Shown here: piece after piece, positions 1 through 9,319 of the stretch
Position numbering within the stretch: position 1 is the stretch's first letter
Layout of the letters: each line of letters starts with the position of its first letter
Source: Deltaproteobacteria bacterium
GTDB taxonomy: Bacteria; JAUYMQ01
Assembly: GCA_030698575.1 (NCBI GenBank)
Contig: JAUYMQ010000430.1
Location: 1-9,438, forward strand
Direction of reading: 5' to 3'
Length of the DNA: 9,438 bases
Notes under the pieces: model-generated
Told to the model about the DNA's origin: nothing
The model's database searches: none
Seen by the model: only the letters and a program-made list of their open reading frames with translations
Made by a program: the position numbers and the translations under genes

Positions 1-231
1 TACCCGCCCGATCGGGTGATCGCCGAGTTGCGGAGATGCGCCGGGACGCAGTTCGATCCGGAAGTCGTGGCCTGCGCGATCGCACTCCTGGAGGAAGGCG
101 GCGAGGATTTCCTCCTCTCGCCGCCCCGGGACAATCTCTTCCAGTCCGATTCTGATTTCGAGGCGCTGCTGGTCGAGGCGCGCGCGGGGCACGACGTGGA
201 TCCACGAGCGGAGTGGCGCCAGGTCCGCTAG
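1..231 (+). CDS. HD-GYP domain protein, C-terminal end (partial, 5' end outside window)
   Basis: The reading frame is open from the first base and ends at TAG 229-231, giving 76 visible residues. The stretch RRCAGTQFDPEVV (about residues 11-23) matches the conserved end of HD-GYP domains, where a Ser/Cys-Gly-x-Gln-Phe-Asp-Pro segment closes the helical bundle. These domains are usually cyclic-di-GMP phosphodiesterases and often the output domain of response regulators. The catalytic HD and GYP motifs would lie upstream and are not visible, so neither activity nor any receiver domain can be judged. After the domain a 50-residue acidic tail continues to the stop. The gene converges on the next one, and the two stop codons share the palindrome CTAG. 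Family assignment is fairly safe; enzymatic function is inferred. Confidence 0.75.
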   Translation, partial: YPPDRVIAELRRCAGTQFDPEVVACAIALLEEGGEDFLLSPPRDNLFQSDSDFEALLVEARAGHDVDPRAEWRQVR

Positions 232-1478
232 CGGTACCGTCGAAGGTAGGAGAGATCCCGATCCTGGGTGTTCTTCGCGCCGACGAGGATGACGCGGTAG
301 CGCCCGCCTTCGGCCTGGCAGCAGTAGATCCTCCCCTTCCCGGCAAATCCAAGCTCGAAGATGTTTCCGTGCTCCAGCCCCCCGACCTTTCGCCGCATCG
401 GAAGGTTGTCATCGCGGTCGTTCAGGCGCTTCAAGACCTCCTCCGCCCGCAGCATGGCGTCGTCGTCGCCCAGGTTGATGATATCCGAAACCACCCTGCT
501 CTCGAATTCGAGATTCTTGTAGAGGGTCCGAAGGCGCCTGTCGAGGAGTTCGGCGTCCCGCGCTCGTCCCTTGGGAACCGGCTTGCCCTCCCGGCGCTGG
601 ATGCTCGCGCTGAGCTCCTCGATCTTCGCCTCGTGGATTTTCTTGTCCGCCCTTGCATCTTCCAGCTTCTGCTCGAGCCGTTCGAGCTCCTTTTCGAGCT
701 CGCCCGCGTCTTCCCAGGTCCAGCCGCCCAGGCGCTGCTCGAGCCGGGCCTTCTCACTTTCGAGCGCGCGGATCTGCGTGACACGCTCGCTTGCGTGCCG
801 CGACGCCTCGTCGAGCTTCGTTGTGACGCGCTTGAGCTCCGTCTCGATTCGCGCGACTCGTTCGGCGCTCTCACGATCGAGGCGCTCGGCGATCTCGAGC
901 TTTTCCTGTTCCGTGCGAAGAACGAACCGCCTGGCGTGGACCCAAAGGATCTGCAGGAGCAGGAAGAGGTAGATGACGAGGATTCCGTTGGCGAGCCAGG
1001 TGTTGTTTCGGATCGAGACCCAGGTATCGACCGTGAGCCCCTCGCGCAGAATCTCGTAGTTCTCCCTGGCGACCTCCGCGCGGGGACGCGGGTGAAGGGC
1101 CGCGGGCGGCAGCGCCGAAGGGGCGGCCCGGGGATCGGCGAGGGGATCGGCGAGGCCGTTCGGGGGAAACCATTCCCGGAGTCTGGGGTAGATCGTGACC
1201 CCGCCGGTGGTCTGAACGGTCACGCGCAGTTCGAGGCCGAGCCCCACAAGCCTCCGGATCCAGCCCTGATCTAATGCGAGCTTGGTCCGCGCGTTGACGA
1301 GCTCAGTGTAACTTGCCTCCCCTGAAAGCAATTCTTCCGGATCGACGAGGATTGCCTGCCGGACGTCGACGGACACCTCACGGGTGATCAGGGCTTCGCC
1401 GCCCTTCAGGCTGAAGATGTAGAGGAAGACGAACGCCAGGATGGCGCCGGTGATGAAGCGGAAGGAGAACTCTCTCAT
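228..1478 (-). CDS. Two-pass membrane protein with long coiled coil and RelE/ParE-like C-terminal segment
   Basis: 416 residues from ATG at 1476-1478; no clear Shine-Dalgarno sequence precedes it. Visible order: hydrophobic segment at about 7-24, a predicted extracytoplasmic region 25-160 with a proline/alanine-rich stretch at 105-133, a second hydrophobic segment at about 162-181, then a highly charged heptad-rich coiled coil at about 185-295. The last 100 residues (about 312-416) look globular. Their end has the look of RelE/ParE/HigB-type folds: a Gly-Leu-Glu-His-Gly-Asn-Ile-Phe-Glu-Leu strand (367-376), an alternating strand with Tyr-Arg-Val-Ile-Leu-Val (394-399), then Lys-Asn-Thr-Gln-Asp-Arg (402-407), resembling the toxin 'KKTQ' tail. 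I do not recognise the whole protein. No antitoxin gene adjoins it, so a stand-alone toxin is unlikely. A membrane-tethered RNA- or ribosome-binding role is only a guess. Topology (both termini cytoplasmic) is inferred. Confidence 0.8.
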   Translation of the reverse strand: MREFSFRFITGAILAFVFLYIFSLKGGEALITREVSVDVRQAILVDPEELLSGEASYTELVNARTKLALDQGWIRRLVGLGLELRVTVQTTGGVTIYPRLREWFPPNGLADPLADPRAAPSALPPAALHPRPRAEVARENYEILREGLTVDTWVSIRNNTWLANGILVIYLFLLLQILWVHARRFVLRTEQEKLEIAERLDRESAERVARIETELKRVTTKLDEASRHASERVTQIRALESEKARLEQRLGGWTWEDAGELEKELERLEQKLEDARADKKIHEAKIEELSASIQRREGKPVPKGRARDAELLDRRLRTLYKNLEFESRVVSDIINLGDDDAMLRAEEVLKRLNDRDDNLPMRRKVGGLEHGNIFELGFAGKGRIYCCQAEGGRYRVILVGAKNTQDRDLSYLRRYR

Positions 1479-2099: not shown

Positions 2100-3908
2100 T
2101 CAGGCGACGGGATCTTCCGCGTCTCCCGAAAATTCTTCCAGTTCCTCCGGAAGCGTCGCTGGAACCCGGAGCGTGCGGCCTTCGCGCGCGACTACCTGGC
2201 CTGGAGGCGCCCCGTGGAGCTTGCGGACGTGGCTCAGGCGCGTGACCGTCACATCGGCCTGCCGTTCATCTCTCGCGCCGCTGAAATAGGCGGCAGCGCG
2301 CGCCGCCGCCGCCAGGATCCGCTCGGGCGGCTCCGTCGATCGCGCGCAACGAAGGAGCACGTGCGCGCCGGGCACGCTACGCGCGTGCAGCCAGATATCC
2401 GAGGGCTTTCCAATCCGCGTGACCAGCCGGTCGTTGTCGCGGCCGTGCCGGCCTACGAGCATCTCCCAACCCTCGAGCATGAAGCGGCGCGGTTTCGGAT
2501 CCGGCGGAATCCGCCCCTTGGCGGGATTCCGTCCGGGGCGAATCTGTTTTTCGGGGCGTCCGGTCCTCGCCTTCGCGGAAATGCTCTCGCTGATCGCTTC
2601 CAGCGTCTCCACCTCCCCCGCCTGCGCGGCCTGGAGCGCCTGCTCCCGGAGAAATCGCATTTCGATCTCGCCCCGCGCAATCAAGCCCTCGATGATGGAG
2701 ACGGCCCGCTTCGCCTTGCGGGCACGTAGATAGAGCCGTTCGGCGTTCGCTGCAAGACTGCGCGCGGGGTCGAGTTCGATCCGCAGGGTGGCGCCCCCGG
2801 CATCGAAGGCGTCCACGACTTCGATTGCCTCGAGGCCGCGGCGGCGGGCGTCCGGTTGGGTGAGCAGGAGATCAGCCTGCCGGCGCCACCGTTCGCCTCG
2901 CTTCGCCTCGGCCAGATCCGATCGTTGGCGGTCGAGCTTCAGCTCGCGGTGATCGATGAGCCGCGTGAGCGCCCGTAAGGTGCGCCCGCGATGCGTTTCG
3001 AGCGCCTGCGCCGCGCCCTCTGAGCCGGCGAGATCGTCGAGGGCGCCGGATAGACTCTTGACGGGTGATCCTTCCTGGCCGGTGGCGGGGAGGGGGAAGG
3101 GAAGAAGCACGGCCGGGGCGCCGTCTGCGGCGCCCGGGAGCAGGCGCGGGTTGCAGGGCCGGGCGAGCAGGGCGCGGAAGGCCGTGAGGAGCGCTTCCGC
3201 ACCGGCCTCGTCGACCCCACCAGCCAGCGACTCCGCCGGCAAGCCTGACTGCGCGATGGCTTCCGCGGCAAGGTGGCGACCGACGCCCTCGAAAAGCCGT
3301 GAGAGGAGGCGCCCCGGATCCCGGACTGCCCGGCGGCCGTCGGATGCGCCAAGGCGCTCGATGCCGCTGATGACTTCGTCCGCCGAGGCGCGCTCGGGAT
3401 CGAGGCGCCCATCGAGCCGGGGGAGGCGGTAGGCCGCTCCCGTGGTCAGATCGCGGCGCGCGGCAGGCAGCGGGCGAAGGACGCCGAGGATTCGCGTTTC
3501 GTCACCGTTCTCCGCGCAGAGAATCACGGTTGAGGCGTGGCCGGTCAGCTCGACGGCGAGGACAGCTCGGTCGGTCTTCGCCCCGCGCCGCGCCCCGAAC
3601 CGGAGGTGAACCACCGGGACGTCATGTTCCGCGACCGCTTCCTCGAATGCGCGCCCCTCGAGATGCTTGCGCGCGAGCATGCAAAAGGGGGGCGGGAAGG
3701 CCGGGTTCTGATCCCGTCGTGTGGTGAGGTGAACGCGCGCGTTCCGTGCGCCGGCGCTTGCCAGCAGCCGCTGCTCGCCCGCCGTACCGCGAAGGATCAG
3801 AACCAGCGTGTCGGGATGGGGCAGGTGAACTCGCCGGACGATCGCGCCGTGAAGCGCCCCGGTGATCTCTCGCGCGATCTCGTGTCGCAGCGGCCGGTCG
3901 AGAATCAC
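2100..3908 (-). CDS. rqcH: NFACT family protein, RqcH-like ribosome quality-control factor
   Basis: 602 residues. RqcH binds 50S subunits carrying stalled peptidyl-tRNA and recruits tRNA-Ala to add a C-terminal alanine tail that marks the chain for proteolysis. Order seen: NFACT-N at about 1-165, with Asp4 and the family signature CMLARKHLEGR (76-86); a helix-hairpin-helix-like stretch at about 175-225; the coiled-coil arm at about 300-450; and NFACT-R at about 476-592, with GRHGRDNDRL (486-495), DIWLHARSVPGAHV (504-517) and VRKLHGAPPG (561-570). No long NFACT-C region follows. The start is GTG 3906-3908, with GGAG 6 bases upstream (complement of 3915-3918) and the expected family N-terminus. 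Oddity: the Asp-Arg pair of NFACT-N (Asp97/Arg98 in B. subtilis) aligns here with Asp96-Val97. The family call is strong; full alanine-tailing activity is therefore uncertain. The gene is alone on its strand. Confidence 0.9.
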   Translation of the reverse strand: MILDRPLRHEIAREITGALHGAIVRRVHLPHPDTLVLILRGTAGEQRLLASAGARNARVHLTTRRDQNPAFPPPFCMLARKHLEGRAFEEAVAEHDVPVVHLRFGARRGAKTDRAVLAVELTGHASTVILCAENGDETRILGVLRPLPAARRDLTTGAAYRLPRLDGRLDPERASADEVISGIERLGASDGRRAVRDPGRLLSRLFEGVGRHLAAEAIAQSGLPAESLAGGVDEAGAEALLTAFRALLARPCNPRLLPGAADGAPAVLLPFPLPATGQEGSPVKSLSGALDDLAGSEGAAQALETHRGRTLRALTRLIDHRELKLDRQRSDLAEAKRGERWRRQADLLLTQPDARRRGLEAIEVVDAFDAGGATLRIELDPARSLAANAERLYLRARKAKRAVSIIEGLIARGEIEMRFLREQALQAAQAGEVETLEAISESISAKARTGRPEKQIRPGRNPAKGRIPPDPKPRRFMLEGWEMLVGRHGRDNDRLVTRIGKPSDIWLHARSVPGAHVLLRCARSTEPPERILAAAARAAAYFSGARDERQADVTVTRLSHVRKLHGAPPGQVVAREGRTLRVPATLPEELEEFSGDAEDPVA

Positions 3909-3940: not shown

Positions 3941-4003
3941 GCGCTGTTAATCTCCGCGGTTCCGGCCGTGGCGCTCATGGGGCGCCGCGGGCTCGGGATA
4001 TTC

Positions 4004-4009
4004 GGAGGT
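4004..4009 (+). promoter_or_regulatory. Ribosome-binding site that sets a TTG start
   Basis: GGAGGT lies 6 bases before TTG 4016-4018. The two in-frame upstream alternatives, GTG 3968 and ATG 3977, lack such a site and would add 13-16 residues in front of the conserved first beta strand. The TTG is therefore preferred. Confidence 0.8.
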
Positions 4010-4015
4010 CCGCGT

Positions 4016-5122
4016 TTGACAATCGTCTTCTACGTGAGCGGCCACGGCTTCGGCCACGCGGTGCGTATCGCCGAGGTGATTCGCACCATCCTTGCACGAG
4101 AGCCGCGGGCGCGCATTCACGTCCGGAGCAGCGCGCCCGGCTGGCTCTTTCCCGTTGACGAGCGCCTGAGCCGGGCCGACGTCCGGCTCGATGTCGGCGT
4201 GGTGCAGCAGAACAGCCTGACGCTCGATCCCGCGGCCACGCTCGCCGGGATGAGCGCCATACTCGGGGACACCGAATCGATCCTCGCGCGGGAGTCCGCC
4301 GCGCTCCGCGACCTTGATTGCCGGGCCGTCGTGGGCGACATTCCGCCGCTCGCCTTCGCGGCGGCCGCGCGCGCGTCAGTGCCCTCGGCGGCGATCGCCA
4401 ACTTCTCCTGGGACTGGATCTACCGCGCCTACCTGCCCGCCGCACCCGCCTTCGGGTCGTTGATCGAAACGATGGCGCGCCAGTACGGGCAGGCTTCCAT
4501 TCTCCTGAGACTCCCGTTTCACGGCGATCTCTCGGCCTTTTCCCGGCATCGCGACATCCCCCTCATCGCCCGCCGCGCCGCGCTGCCGAAGGCGGAACTG
4601 CGGCGGGGGCTTGCGCTCGACGATCGGCCGGCCGCGCTCCTCTCCTTTGGCGGCTTCGGCCTGGCCGATCTTCCCGTGGCCCGAATGGCGCGCGAGAGCC
4701 CCGGCTGGCAGTTCCTGGCGCCCTGGAGGCCCGATGGGGAACTTCCGGCGAACCTGCGCTGCCTCGACGGGCGGAAGGTGAACCACGAGGACCTCGTGGC
4801 CGCTGTCGACGTGGTGGTGACGAAGCCGGGCTACGGGATCGTGGCGGAGTGCCTCGCCAACGGCGCCCGGGTTCTTTATACGTCGCGAGGGGATTTTCCG
4901 GAGTACCCCGTGCTCGTCGGGGCGCTGGAGCGCCACGCAACCGCGCGCTACGTGGCGCCGGAGGCATTGCTCGGGGGGCGCATCAGCGGGGAGCTTGACG
5001 CGCTGCTGGCGGCTGGGGAGCGCGCCGCGCCGCTGGACCCGGGCGCCTTCGAGGGGGCGCGGGTCGCGGCGGAGATCATCCTGGAGATGGCCGGCGGGTC
5101 ACTCAGCGCTTCCGGGCCGTGA
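4016..5122 (+). CDS. GT-B glycosyltransferase-like protein related to the L-arabinokinase N-terminal domain
   Basis: 368 residues from TTG 4016-4018. The fold looks like a two-domain GT-B enzyme of the GT28/MurG type. The N-terminal half starts with a beta strand and GHGFGH (9-14), the glycine-rich loop of this group. It carries NFSWDWIY (129-136), closely matching the NFSWDFIY motif in the N-terminal half of plant L-arabinokinase, and LLRLPF (163-168). The C-terminal half has FGGFG (211-215) and TKPGYGIVAECLA (269-281), the expected donor-nucleotide binding region. Plant arabinokinases fuse this domain to a GHMP sugar kinase; here it is alone, with no kinase next to it. No signal peptide or membrane segment is evident, so it is probably cytosolic or peripheral. 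Donor and acceptor cannot be read from the sequence. It is divergent from the rqcH-like gene and its end overlaps the mini-secretin gene by 20 bases. Confidence 0.88.
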   Translation: MTIVFYVSGHGFGHAVRIAEVIRTILAREPRARIHVRSSAPGWLFPVDERLSRADVRLDVGVVQQNSLTLDPAATLAGMSAILGDTESILARESAALRDLDCRAVVGDIPPLAFAAAARASVPSAAIANFSWDWIYRAYLPAAPAFGSLIETMARQYGQASILLRLPFHGDLSAFSRHRDIPLIARRAALPKAELRRGLALDDRPAALLSFGGFGLADLPVARMARESPGWQFLAPWRPDGELPANLRCLDGRKVNHEDLVAAVDVVVTKPGYGIVAECLANGARVLYTSRGDFPEYPVLVGALERHATARYVAPEALLGGRISGELDALLAAGERAAPLDPGAFEGARVAAEIILEMAGGSLSASGP

Positions 5123-5966
5123 CGACCAGGTAGGTGCTCTCCGCCTTTCGCGCGCGGGCGCCGCCGCGCAGGATTTCCCTGAGCGCGGTGTTCTTGCTTT
5201 CTGAAGTGCTTCCGAGAATGACCGACTCGCCGTCGCGGACCTCGATCTGCGTGGTGGCCTCCGTGAAGCGGATGCTCGCGCCATGCTCGCCGAGGTTGCG
5301 CATCCACGGCGTGATCTCGAGAAGGATGCGATCCTCGCCGATGGTTCGCGGATGCACGGCGAGGCCGGTGTCGACCGAGACCCATTCGGTCGAGACGATG
5401 GTGTGGCCGTGGCCCGCCGCGTAGTGATGGAACGCGTTCGTGAAGGGAATTTCCTGTCCGGTCGAGATCTCGGCCGTACCGTCGTTCATCACGAGAACCG
5501 TCTGTCGGGTGGTTCCCTGTTCCCGCCGATCCGTCGCGCCCGCCGTGGCGAGCGCAGTGAGCCCGCTGCCGGGGACTGGGGCCGGGATCGTCCCGATCTG
5601 CCAGCCCGAATCACGGTAGGCCCAGTCCACTCGCGCGTGTATCGCGCGCAGATCACGATCGGTCATGCTCTCGACGGTTACCTCGATGTTGCTCTGGCGG
5701 ACGTCCTGGGAAGCCAGCACGGATTTTGCCTGGGAGATCCCTTCGGCATTGTCGATGATGACGATCGAGTTGGTTCGTGAGTCGACCGATGCGCGCCCCT
5801 CCGGCGAGAGGGCGGCCGTGACGGAAGGGAGAAGTTCTTCGGCCACACGGCTCTTCATCTTGTAGATGAAGACTTCGCGGTCGCCGGCAGCCAGAGCGTC
5901 GATGGCAGCGAGGCAGAGAATGAGACCCAGGGCCGCCGAAAGCCCGGTTCGTGCGTTGATCTTCAT
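5103..5966 (-). CDS. Exported miniature secretin-domain protein
   Basis: 287 residues from ATG 5964-5966, with GGGAGG 6 bases upstream; the same frame is open to 6113, but that extension is not signal-like. Residues 1-27 form a signal peptide with likely cleavage after Ala-Leu-Ala. Residues 31-95 resemble the short secretin N1/NolW domain: a VFIYKMKSR strand, then RTNSIVIID. From about 93 on it follows the secretin core: NIEVTVESMTD, TVLVMNDGTAEISTGQEIPF (156-175), LAVHPRTIGEDRILLEITP (202-220), VRDGESVILG (243-252) and a final STYLVVTAR strand. The gate region between 125 and 155 is very short, and the usual VPxLxxIPxxG lip motif is absent. Full secretins are about 400-700 residues, so it may not form a gated pore. 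It starts 2 bases after the GH84-like stop, so the two are surely co-transcribed. Confidence 0.82.
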   Translation of the reverse strand: MKINARTGLSAALGLILCLAAIDALAAGDREVFIYKMKSRVAEELLPSVTAALSPEGRASVDSRTNSIVIIDNAEGISQAKSVLASQDVRQSNIEVTVESMTDRDLRAIHARVDWAYRDSGWQIGTIPAPVPGSGLTALATAGATDRREQGTTRQTVLVMNDGTAEISTGQEIPFTNAFHHYAAGHGHTIVSTEWVSVDTGLAVHPRTIGEDRILLEITPWMRNLGEHGASIRFTEATTQIEVRDGESVILGSTSESKNTALREILRGGARARKAESTYLVVTARKR

Positions 5967-5968
5967 GA

Positions 5969-8383
5969 CTATCCTCCCGAGGGGCCAGAGGTTCGCGCGG
6001 GCTTCATGATCCTCGCCTCCGCGAATCGCGCCGCCTGCTCCTTTACCCATCCTTCGAGCTCCCGGATGAGCTCGTGGTCTTTCCCGACGAGGGCCGCTCG
6101 AAGCGCGCGCCATCGCTCGGCGGACGTCGCCCGGGCGCCCTCCAGGTCCCTGAGCAATCCCGACTCCGGGGCGCCGTCCACGGCCGCGAGCCGGTTGATC
6201 CAGAGCCGCTCCTTCCAGTAGGCCGAATCCCAGTCGAGGATCAAGCCCGCCGTTTCAGCTCCCCAGCGGCGCACCATCGCCCGCCACATCGACCGGTCAG
6301 CGTCGTAGGCCTCCGGATTCCAGAGGTAGTCGGCGAGGGTCATCGCCTTGGCCAGAAAGCGCCCTCCGGTCGAGCCGTTGAAATAGAACTCCCCTTCGAA
6401 GCTCGAGGCGGGCAAATCTTCAGCCTCGATGAAAAAAGGTTCGAAAAGGCTGGCCTTCGCGGCGCGGTCTGGGCTCCCCGCATAGTGAGGGCTCAGCTCC
6501 AGCTCCCAGACGGAATTGTCCCAGAGAATGAGCGGCCGCCCGCCGACCGTGTCGGCGAAGCCCGCGGCGCTCGTCCCGTCGACGATGCGGGATCGCACGG
6601 TCGGCCCGGTCCAGGCCAGGACCACGTCCGGGGGGAGTTCCCGCCCGAGCGCCGTCATGTAGGCGTCCGCTTCAGCGCCCCCCCTCTCGCGGAATTGGTC
6701 ATTGTACCAGGGGGGAACGATCACCAGCATCGCGCCCTGGCTGGCGCGGACCCTCTGCCGGACCTGATCGATGAGCCAGAGGTGCGCCGCTGCGAGCGAA
6801 GGAAAGCGCGCGCGATCATGGGCATCGTCGAGATGGTAGGCGAAGGGGTTCTCGACGGTCGCGGGGAGGAAATCGTCGAGGCAGAGCATGACGATGCGTG
6901 CTCCCGCCTCGAGGCTCTGATCGATTTCAGACAGGAGAATGTCCACGTCCTCCTTCCGGCTGATCTGGAAGGTGTCGGTGATCCCGGACTCGGAGCGCTG
7001 GGCGTAGGGGTTCAGAAGTATGCCGAGCTGGTAGAGCTGTGTCTCCATCGCCCGCTCGCCGATATCCTCGAGAAGCGCGCGGTAGAGTCGGGGGGGCTCC
7101 CACCAGCGCGGCGTGCGCAGCGGGTAGTTCAGGTAGAGGCGATTGAGCTTCAGGCCCACCATCCAGCGAGAGGCGCTGAGAATCGAGCGTGCGCCGAGTA
7201 TCCCGGGCTCCCAGGCGGCGAGCGAGCGGCCCCTGAAGGCCGGCCAGTCGGTTCCGTCCACGGCGCGAAGCGCGGCGCCGCCTTCATCCGCCGGGCGCAG
7301 GAGCTGTCGCAGGGTCTCGAGCGCGTAGATCGCACCGGGGCCGTCGGCGCCGGCGGCCTCGATGGACAGGCCGCGCGGTTCGAGGGTGCGCGATCGCAAG
7401 GCATAGCCTTCCGGCCCCAGCCGGAGCGCCGCGGCGGCCGTGGCAGCCAGCACCGCCGGGACTTTCCCGTCGGCCCGGGCGAACCTGAGCGTTGCGTCGC
7501 AGCCGGCAGGCGCCTCTCCTTTGCTGCCGGGCGTGATCAGCACGGCGCCGAGCTCGCGAAGCCTCTCTTCGAACTCCGCGACGCGCGCGGCGAAGCCGGC
7601 CGGCGGGGGTTCGGGTGCGTGAAGGCAGAGTCGCCTGATGGCGAGCGACGGCCCGTGCTCGGCAAGATTCCGGGGAGTCGGCACGACACGGCCCAGCGCG
7701 TCGTCGTCAAGTGCGCGATAAGGCGCGATGCGCTCTTCGAGCGTGAGGTTGCGGGCGCTATAGCTGAAGCGGACATCGTCGATCTCTACGATGCCCGGGC
7801 CGGCAAGCGTGAAGCGCACGCGGGCGAAAGTCGCGCCGGACGGCGCCTCATCGCCGGCGGGGTTCTCGTAGCTCGAGACGAATCCGGCCCGGCGCCAGGC
7901 GGATGTGCCCGCGCTCTTCAGAAAAGCGAGCGGGTAGGGGCGATCTCCGGACAGGCCGGCGATCGGCCGGCGTTGCGCGTCGAGCCACTCGACGCGCACG
8001 CGAAAGCGCTCCGCCATCGTTCCGCTCGCGGGGCGAGGCGTGGTGGTGAATCGCAGCGCGGCCGAAAGCTCGTGGAGGCCGGGAAGCACCGGCACCTCGG
8101 TCGCGGCCTCGGCGTGGCCGCCGGCGTGGGCAGCCAGGCGCAGCGCGAATTGCCCCGCATGGGCTTCACGGTCGCTCACCCGCGCGCCCTCGATCCGCCA
8201 GCCCCGCGCACCGGCCTCGAAGCTTCCGTTGGCAAGAAGATTTCCGCGCTCGAAAGCCGCGCGCCGGAGGGCCAGAGAGGGTTCATCGCCGGTGTCGGCC
8301 GCCGCCGGCCGCTGCAGCGCGGCCGGTGCGAGACCGATCACCAGGAGCGCCAGGACGATGCGGCGCGGAATTCGGAATGTCAT
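5969..8383 (-). CDS. Exported GH84-like beta-N-acetylglucosaminidase
   Basis: 804 residues from ATG 8381-8383, with GAGAGGG just upstream; an in-frame GTG at 8411 lies ahead of that site. Residues 1-29 look like a signal peptide ending in AAA. Next comes a jelly-roll, CBM-like module (about 47-210), beginning NLLANGSFEAGARGW. Residues 230-375 resemble the N-terminal domain of GH20/GH84 enzymes (VVPTPRNL; GPGAIYALETLRQLL). The TIM barrel follows: RGRSLAAWEPG (384-394), MLCLDDF (499-505) with the catalytic Asp pair 503-504, VIVPPWYND (554-562), WTGPTVRSRI (591-600) and LILWDN (618-623). These match GH84 order, where enzymes remove terminal beta-GlcNAc by substrate-assisted catalysis. Departures: no GFYG/PW motif at the barrel start, and WDN is followed by SVWELE instead of the usual Asn-Asp-Tyr. 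The substrate may therefore be unusual. It is the first gene of an operon with the mini-secretin. Confidence 0.85.
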   Translation of the reverse strand: MTFRIPRRIVLALLVIGLAPAALQRPAAADTGDEPSLALRRAAFERGNLLANGSFEAGARGWRIEGARVSDREAHAGQFALRLAAHAGGHAEAATEVPVLPGLHELSAALRFTTTPRPASGTMAERFRVRVEWLDAQRRPIAGLSGDRPYPLAFLKSAGTSAWRRAGFVSSYENPAGDEAPSGATFARVRFTLAGPGIVEIDDVRFSYSARNLTLEERIAPYRALDDDALGRVVPTPRNLAEHGPSLAIRRLCLHAPEPPPAGFAARVAEFEERLRELGAVLITPGSKGEAPAGCDATLRFARADGKVPAVLAATAAAALRLGPEGYALRSRTLEPRGLSIEAAGADGPGAIYALETLRQLLRPADEGGAALRAVDGTDWPAFRGRSLAAWEPGILGARSILSASRWMVGLKLNRLYLNYPLRTPRWWEPPRLYRALLEDIGERAMETQLYQLGILLNPYAQRSESGITDTFQISRKEDVDILLSEIDQSLEAGARIVMLCLDDFLPATVENPFAYHLDDAHDRARFPSLAAAHLWLIDQVRQRVRASQGAMLVIVPPWYNDQFRERGGAEADAYMTALGRELPPDVVLAWTGPTVRSRIVDGTSAAGFADTVGGRPLILWDNSVWELELSPHYAGSPDRAAKASLFEPFFIEAEDLPASSFEGEFYFNGSTGGRFLAKAMTLADYLWNPEAYDADRSMWRAMVRRWGAETAGLILDWDSAYWKERLWINRLAAVDGAPESGLLRDLEGARATSAERWRALRAALVGKDHELIRELEGWVKEQAARFAEARIMKPARTSGPSGG

Positions 8384-8445
8384 GTCGGCCCTCTCTCCTC
8401 GAGCGGGTGTCACGGTTACTTCGGGCGCAAGAAGATGGATCGGCC

Positions 8446-8478
8446 ATTAAAGCCGGCGACTTGACCTGGCCGCCGGCT
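8446..8478 (-). promoter_or_regulatory. Inverted repeat and TTTAAT box upstream of the GH84 operon
   Basis: AGCCGGCG (8451-8458) and CGCCGGCT (8471-8478) form a perfect 8-bp stem with a 12-base loop. On the minus strand the stem runs directly into TTTAAT (8451 to 8446). That hexamer could be the -10 of the GH84 operon, with no good -35, in which case the repeat is an operator. Alternatively it is a weak terminator-like tail. The operon start codon lies about 60 bases further on. Confidence 0.35.
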
Positions 8479-8498
8479 GCGAAGAACCGGCAGATTCC

Positions 8499-8528
8499 TT
8501 GACGCTCGCGCGCGGGCGGTGCTAGGGT
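8499..8528 (+). promoter_or_regulatory. Candidate sigma-70 promoter for the TolB/FlgO-like gene
   Basis: TTGACG (8499-8504) is followed after 18 bases by TAGGGT (8523-8528), a form common in GC-rich genomes. Transcription would begin near 8535, reading through the anmK remnant to the gene at 8765, with a leader of about 230 nt. The -10 lies in the loop of the inverted repeat 8508-8540. Confidence 0.5.
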
Positions 8529-8540
8529 CCGCCTGCGCGC
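8508..8540 (+). repeat. 12-bp inverted repeat bracketing a -10 element (possible operator)
   Basis: GCGCGCGGGCGG (8508-8519) is complementary to CCGCCTGCGCGC (8529-8540) with one G-T wobble, around a nine-base centre TGCTAGGGT that contains the proposed -10. A repressor dimer on this repeat would occlude the promoter; as RNA or cruciform it would be a strong hairpin. GC bias raises the chance of accidental pairing, but 11 of 12 Watson-Crick matches is high. Confidence 0.5.
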
Positions 8541-8545
8541 CCGCC

Positions 8546-8707
8546 GTGCTGAACCTCGGCGGCATCGCCAAGCTCACCTACCTTCCCGCCGGGAAGAGGC
8601 CGGAGGCCGTGATCACCTTCGATGTGGGGCCTGCCAACATGGTGATCGACGGCGTCGTCGAGCGGATCACCGCCGGGCGCGATCCGGGCGGTCGTTATGG
8701 GAAAGAT
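8546..8707 (+). pseudogene. anmK: Internal fragment of anhydro-N-acetylmuramic acid kinase
   Basis: About 54 codons closely follow the middle of AnmK, a roughly 370-residue ASKHA-fold kinase that converts 1,6-anhydro-MurNAc to MurNAc-6-phosphate in peptidoglycan recycling. Seen are VLNLGGIAKLTYLPAG, for the family's VLNIGGIANLTYLP, then FDVGPANMVIDGVVERIT, for FDTGPGNMLID, then a decayed Tyr-x-x-Asp. The fragment has no N-terminal catalytic half and no C-terminal domain, and conserved Thr and Gly of the FDTGPGN loop are Val and Ala, so it cannot be active. Homology fades after about 8707, though the frame stays open into the next gene. The flanking sequence shows no transposon ends. It is a deletion remnant, or a fragment left by rearrangement. 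Confidence 0.8.
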
Positions 8708-8752
8708 CGTCCCGGGCGGGCGAGGAGTTCCGCGGGCCTGACGCACCGCGGG

Positions 8753-8758
8753 GGAGGT
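8753..8758 (+). promoter_or_regulatory. Ribosome-binding site that sets a TTG start
   Basis: GGAGGT lies 6 bases before TTG 8765-8767, the same arrangement as at 4004-4018. It separates the exported protein from the in-frame anmK remnant upstream. Confidence 0.75.
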
Positions 8759-8764
8759 GCACCC

Positions 8765-9319
8765 TTGAATCGATCATCGAAACGCTTCGCGCGGCATGCG
8801 GGCGCAGGGCGCGGCGCCCTGTTCCTGATTGCCGCCGCAATGTTGCTCGGGACGCCGTCGGGCGGCCTGATGGCGCAGGCGCCGGATGTCGCCGACATTC
8901 GACTTGCGCTGCTTCCCTTCGCGGTCTCCGGCGCCCTCGAGTACGAGGGCGTGGGGCCGCTCGTTCCCGAGATGCTGGCTTCGCGGATGACGGACATGGG
9001 GCCTTTCCGGTTCATGGACACGGTTGCGATGCGAAAGGAGGGCGCCGCCAAGTCGGGAGCGCTCTCGCCTGACGATGCGGCGCGTTTGGCCAACCGCTTC
9101 GACGCCGACTTCGTCATCGCCGGCGCGATACGCCGGAGCGGAGGCGTCACGGTCCTGAGCGCGCAGCCCTACGCGCGGGACGGATCCGCTGCGGGCGAGC
9201 GGGTTGTGGTGCCGGTCATAACCGTCGAAGATGTCCTGTCGAAGATGGAGCCGCTTGCTGAGGGGCTGTCGGCGCGTCTCCGCCCCTCCCCGGACGAAGC
9301 CAAGCCTCCCAATCCCTGA
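8765..9319 (+). CDS. Small exported TolB/FlgO-like N-terminal domain protein
   Basis: 184 residues from TTG 8765-8767. The N-terminus is basic (RSSKRFARH), then hydrophobic (about 18-30), ending near Leu-Met-Ala-Gln-Ala, a likely signal peptide; there is no lipobox cysteine. The mature part begins IRLALLPFAVSG (about 45-56) and continues with PEMLASRM, then ARLANRFDADFVIAGAIRR (about 107-125) and a VTVLSAQPY strand. This is the layout of TolB N-terminal/FlgO/CsgG-like periplasmic domains: beta strand ending in PF, helix with LASRL, helix with GADYVI. Such domains often precede beta-propeller repeats in larger outer-membrane-associated proteins; here the protein stops after one domain with a proline-rich tail. 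The same frame is open upstream to 8519 through the anmK remnant, but the ribosome-binding site and signal peptide argue for the TTG. Function unknown. Confidence 0.75.
   Translation: MNRSSKRFARHAGAGRGALFLIAAAMLLGTPSGGLMAQAPDVADIRLALLPFAVSGALEYEGVGPLVPEMLASRMTDMGPFRFMDTVAMRKEGAAKSGALSPDDAARLANRFDADFVIAGAIRRSGGVTVLSAQPYARDGSAAGERVVVPVITVEDVLSKMEPLAEGLSARLRPSPDEAKPPNP

Follow-up and report, generated by a model that had tools for sequence, protein, structure and literature searches.

A lipless mini-secretin encoded directly downstream of a GH84-like glycosidase in a Deltaproteobacteria bacterium

The usual picture of a secretin is that of a large outer-membrane gate made of several domains. The secretins of type II secretion systems and type IV pili (GspD and PilQ, recognized by PF00263 together with PF03958) have roughly 430-900 residues, a VPxLGDIPxLGxLF lip and a secretion or pilus operon around them. 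The secretin pIV of filamentous phages (7ofh; phrog_1012) is also small; it is longer than the protein described here, with an additional N-domain, and serves the export of phage. On the enzyme side, the closest described proteins are the GH84 enzymes of the NagJ, BT_4395 and OiOGA type, in which a GH20b domain precedes a catalytic barrel with an Asp-Asp pair and the motifs WTG and WDN, the sugar-binding Asp of GH84 proteins normally following WDN by five residues.

The window, that is the whole stretch of 9,438 nucleotides analysed here, spans contig C346 from end to end; the genome it belongs to, probably metagenome-assembled, totals 4.13 Mb in 653 contigs. Its central part holds a pair of genes with the following features:

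5969..8383, minus strand: GH84-type β-N-acetylglucosaminidase, exported, 804 aa (Pfam, PDB matches, motif alignment)
5103..5966, minus strand: mini-secretin, exported, 287 aa (PF00263, PF03958, AF2 model, Foldseek/VIA, family alignments, lip test)
5973..5978, minus strand: Shine-Dalgarno sequence GGGAGG of the mini-secretin gene (direct sequence reading)
8384..8518, minus strand: 5′ region of the operon, with the ribosome-binding site GAGGAGAGAGGG ahead of the ATG at 8383
Regions of the GH84 protein: signal peptide; carbohydrate-binding-like N-terminal region at ~45-215 (weak); GH20b domain, 233-380; catalytic barrel, ~385-720; C-terminal tail
Regions of the mini-secretin: signal peptide, 1-~27; N1-type domain, ~30-92; secretin core, 93-287; central gate, ~170-200; last strand, 278-286

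The GH84 gene is the first of the pair and the mini-secretin gene the second, directly downstream. Reading the stop and start codons from the sequence (TAG at 5971-5969, ATG at 5966-5964) leaves 2 nt between them, as the original prediction had it for these two ORFs on the minus strand. A strong Shine-Dalgarno sequence (GGGAGG, 5978-5973) lies within the final codons of the GH84 gene, a position that makes translational coupling likely, and the pair is probably transcribed as a single unit. Both N-termini, which the original prediction took to carry signal peptides, look like Sec signal peptides when read by eye. A consensus scan found no sigma-70-like promoter upstream of the operon, and searches of the window against Rfam and for plasmids gave no match. 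A 796-aa ORF antisense to the GH84 gene (6074-8464, plus strand) was rejected as a high-GC artefact, the tested Pfam matches falling in the GH84 frame instead.

The assignment of the first protein to an exported GH84-like family stands up well: PF07555 matches with E=3.6e-16 (59.8 bits against a gathering threshold of 25) and the GH20b domain PF02838 with E=1.5e-6, likewise above gathering, while the N-terminal region gives only a weak NTTRR-F1 match (1.7e-3, below cutoff). The sequence matches in the PDB are O-GlcNAcases and hyaluronidases. The catalytic pair Asp503-Asp504 aligns with the DD pair of other GH84 proteins, as do the WTG, WDN and ADYLWNPE motifs. The Asp-Asp pair, WTG, WDN and the GH20b domain ahead of the barrel are all shared with NagJ, BT_4395 and OiOGA-type enzymes, although overall identity to these is low. 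N623 is kept in the sugar-binding WDNxxxxD motif; the Asp is absent from the aligned place, with an insertion nearby. Since the Asp of this WDNxxxxD or (V)ND motif is out of place, the substrate of the enzyme is uncertain. The source genome contains no second PF07555 match, and at 49-60 bits the window enzyme matches this profile more weakly than do the GH84 proteins found in other genomes with a mini-secretin (173-242 bits).

The second protein is a lipless variant of the secretin superfamily. PF00263 matches over profile positions 11-125 of 169 (E=1.2e-11, 45 bits against a cutoff of 27.5), and the ring-building N-domain PF03958 matches with E=4.7e-8 (33.6 bits against 28.2). The NCBIfam equivalogs for PilQ, GspD, SctC and HofQ score far under their cutoffs, the best reaching 56.6 bits against 284 (PilQ) and 48.7 against 351 (GspD). 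An AF2 monomer model, built from three sequences only, is of moderate confidence (mean pLDDT 66, pTM 0.56), with most blocks of the N-domain and core at pLDDT ~60-87. In a Foldseek search all 31 matches at E<=1e-3 were secretins or chains of secretin-bearing complexes, with E down to 1e-8 for PilQ. VIA-align superposed the model on the XcpQ N-domain (Z 9.2, 2.5 Å, 64 residues) and on GspD (Z 8.6) and pIV (Z 8.3, 172 residues for 7ofh), aligning 160-176 residues of the latter two, last strand included; the large rmsd of the GspD and pIV superpositions (~8 Å) makes the placement of the domains in the model uncertain. Residues 27-260 also match the PHROG family phrog_1012 (3.3e-14); the window itself shows no phage genes. 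The presence of an N1-type domain and secretin core strands in so small a protein, which had been proposed from the sequence, is thus borne out by Pfam and by the model, and the predicted fold is that of secretins rather than one lacking their topology.

What the protein shares with GspD and PilQ is the N-domain, the order of the core strands, the pivot glycine, a gate of ordinary length and the last C-terminal strand; it differs in its 287 residues, its single N-domain, the missing lip and the lack of a secretion or pilus operon around it. The pivot glycine, G170, is invariant in an alignment of ten family members. From G170 to about residue 200 the central gate spans ~31 residues, which equals the gate segment of XcpD, residues 466-496 (PMC10550240), and the gate is therefore not minimal as had been thought. 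The absence of a lip, on the other hand, was correctly foreseen. The C-terminal motif VPxLxxIPxxGxLF, common yet not universal in secretins, was present in 72 of 77 long secretins and in none of the 24 members of the mini-secretin family. With the lip regarded as one of the main determinants of membrane insertion (PMC7545093), an outer-membrane location of the mini-secretin is uncertain.

A first contig scan with the window protein as single query found no relative. Relatives were then looked for in a sample of 386 genomes spread over the domain and in two phyla, and full-profile relatives of ~260-300 aa came to light in 23 other genomes from at least four further lineages. Fifteen of these belong to the phylum of genome G335, in which 24 genomes were searched (G335, G062 and 13 others), and 6 of 7 genomes in the phylum of G315 contain one (G315, G180 and four others), with further single relatives in G217 and G087; two family members come from 'Nitrospirae bacterium' MAGs. 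The short full-profile form occurs in only 7 of the 386 genomes of the broad sample, and an E-value gap (4e-48 to 1e-34) sets it apart from ordinary secretins. Within two genera dN/dS is ~0.1-0.2, and together with the shared size and the consistent absence of the lip this shows that the family is real, lipless and under purifying selection. Our literature search found nothing on short lipless secretins. The G315 phylum also encodes more short proteins (L133, L137, L140, L142-L144, L146; ~200-410 aa) whose matches fall mainly in the secretin N-domain and which have no lip motif; they may represent another family of short secretin-like proteins.

The neighbours of the mini-secretin gene differ between clades. 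In the 'Nitrospirae' clade they are minor pilins, DUF2111 and an epimerase, and in other clades a xanthine/uracil permease or a divergent DUF4388 protein. The DUF2111 gene lies immediately upstream of the mini-secretin gene in the 'Nitrospirae' MAGs (L149:3442-3765, L077:9703-10035); Pfam describes this domain as conserved in archaea. The conserved adjacency of the two families that would be expected of a dedicated pair was not found: a relative of the window GH84 gene is present at 0/23 other mini-secretin loci, and a mini-secretin gene at 0/21 other GH84 loci, where the stretches mostly covered several kb on each side and a few of the matches were weak or GH20-like rather than clear GH84. 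At the genome level, 19 of the 23 other genomes with a mini-secretin lack PF07555, and in the remaining 4 it lies on a different contig. Tested in both directions, at loci and in genomes, the pairing is lineage-specific as far as visible. The literature, as searched here, likewise yielded nothing on GH84-secretin pairs.

We consider it probable that the locus is a lineage-specific operon for two separately exported proteins, the mini-secretin having an envelope role independent of GH84 and probably forming a ring; lineage specificity is judged here from a set in which the source genome is the sole representative of its phylum. The two genes would be co-transcribed with coupled translation and their products exported, the GH84-type β-N-acetylglucosaminidase then acting in the periplasm or outside. 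Judging from the fold, the mini-secretin would most likely form a small homomeric ring built on its N1-type domain and core; this ring might sit at or under the outer membrane and serve the envelope independently of the glycosidase. The pairing would then have arisen as a local operon and would not mark a machine. A broader proposal, which we hold to be possible if tentative, is that lipless mini-secretins constitute a separate functional class that forgoes the usual lip insertion, acting in several phyla as periplasmic collars, caps or modulators, and that one of them was recruited here beside a glycosidase.

A serious rival, though we judge it unlikely, is that one of the cell's full-length secretins, of the type IV pilus or type II system (PilQ, GspD or Tad-like), is the true partner: the mini-secretin would co-assemble with it, plug it or regulate it, and GH84 would be a mere operon neighbour. 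Three such secretins are encoded in the source genome, one PilQ-like (C299), one GspD-like (C571) and one CpaC-like (C503); the gene adjoins a block of minor pilins in the 'Nitrospirae' clade, and the N1-type domain and core might pile onto a larger ring or be mixed into it. Against this, the source genome has no pilus genes beside the mini-secretin gene, and in other clades the neighbour is a permease or a DUF4388 protein.

The original prediction went further and saw in the small secretin an outer-membrane ring, plug or scaffold dedicated to the glycosidase. The 2-nt spacing, the Shine-Dalgarno sequence overlapping the end of the GH84 gene and the export of both products would suit such an arrangement, but the homologues were adjacent at none of the other loci examined, in either direction (0/23 and 0/21 loci), with GH84 either absent (19/23) or on another contig (4/23). 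The idea of a dedicated GH84-secretin machine is therefore unsupported and was rejected as improbable. Decay of a full-length secretin into a fragment, as the missing lip and extra N-terminal domains and the nearby anmK fragment might suggest, is a hardly credible origin for the mini-secretin and was rejected: 23 other genomes, from several lineages, encode proteins of matching size and domain order with signal peptides of their own, and dN/dS is ~0.1-0.2.

The GH84 pairing looks like a local operon and establishes no new machine. With ~260-300 residues, one N-domain and no lip, the conserved family would rank among the smallest natural secretins, and mini-secretins offer a tractable way to separate the parts needed for ring assembly from those needed for membrane insertion.

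The remaining genes of the window surround this pair. The anmK remnant that had been taken as a hint of cell-wall or amino-sugar processing is present; it lies on the opposite strand, upstream of the operon, and forms no part of the unit. In this gene (8519-9319, plus strand) the first ~43-60 codons correspond to no more than a central part of AnmK (profile positions 158-200 of 367) and run in frame into what is probably a separate exported protein, weakly DUF2380-like. On the other side, a convergent gene (3968-5122, plus strand) overlaps the 3′ end of the mini-secretin gene by 20 nt and encodes a 384-aa protein weakly resembling family-1 glycosyltransferases (E 0.05). Further along lie a 416-aa coiled-coil protein of no clear family with hydrophobic segments at its N-terminus (228-1478, minus strand) and an RqcH/NFACT-type ribosome rescue protein (2100-3908, minus strand; PF05833, 1.4e-60).
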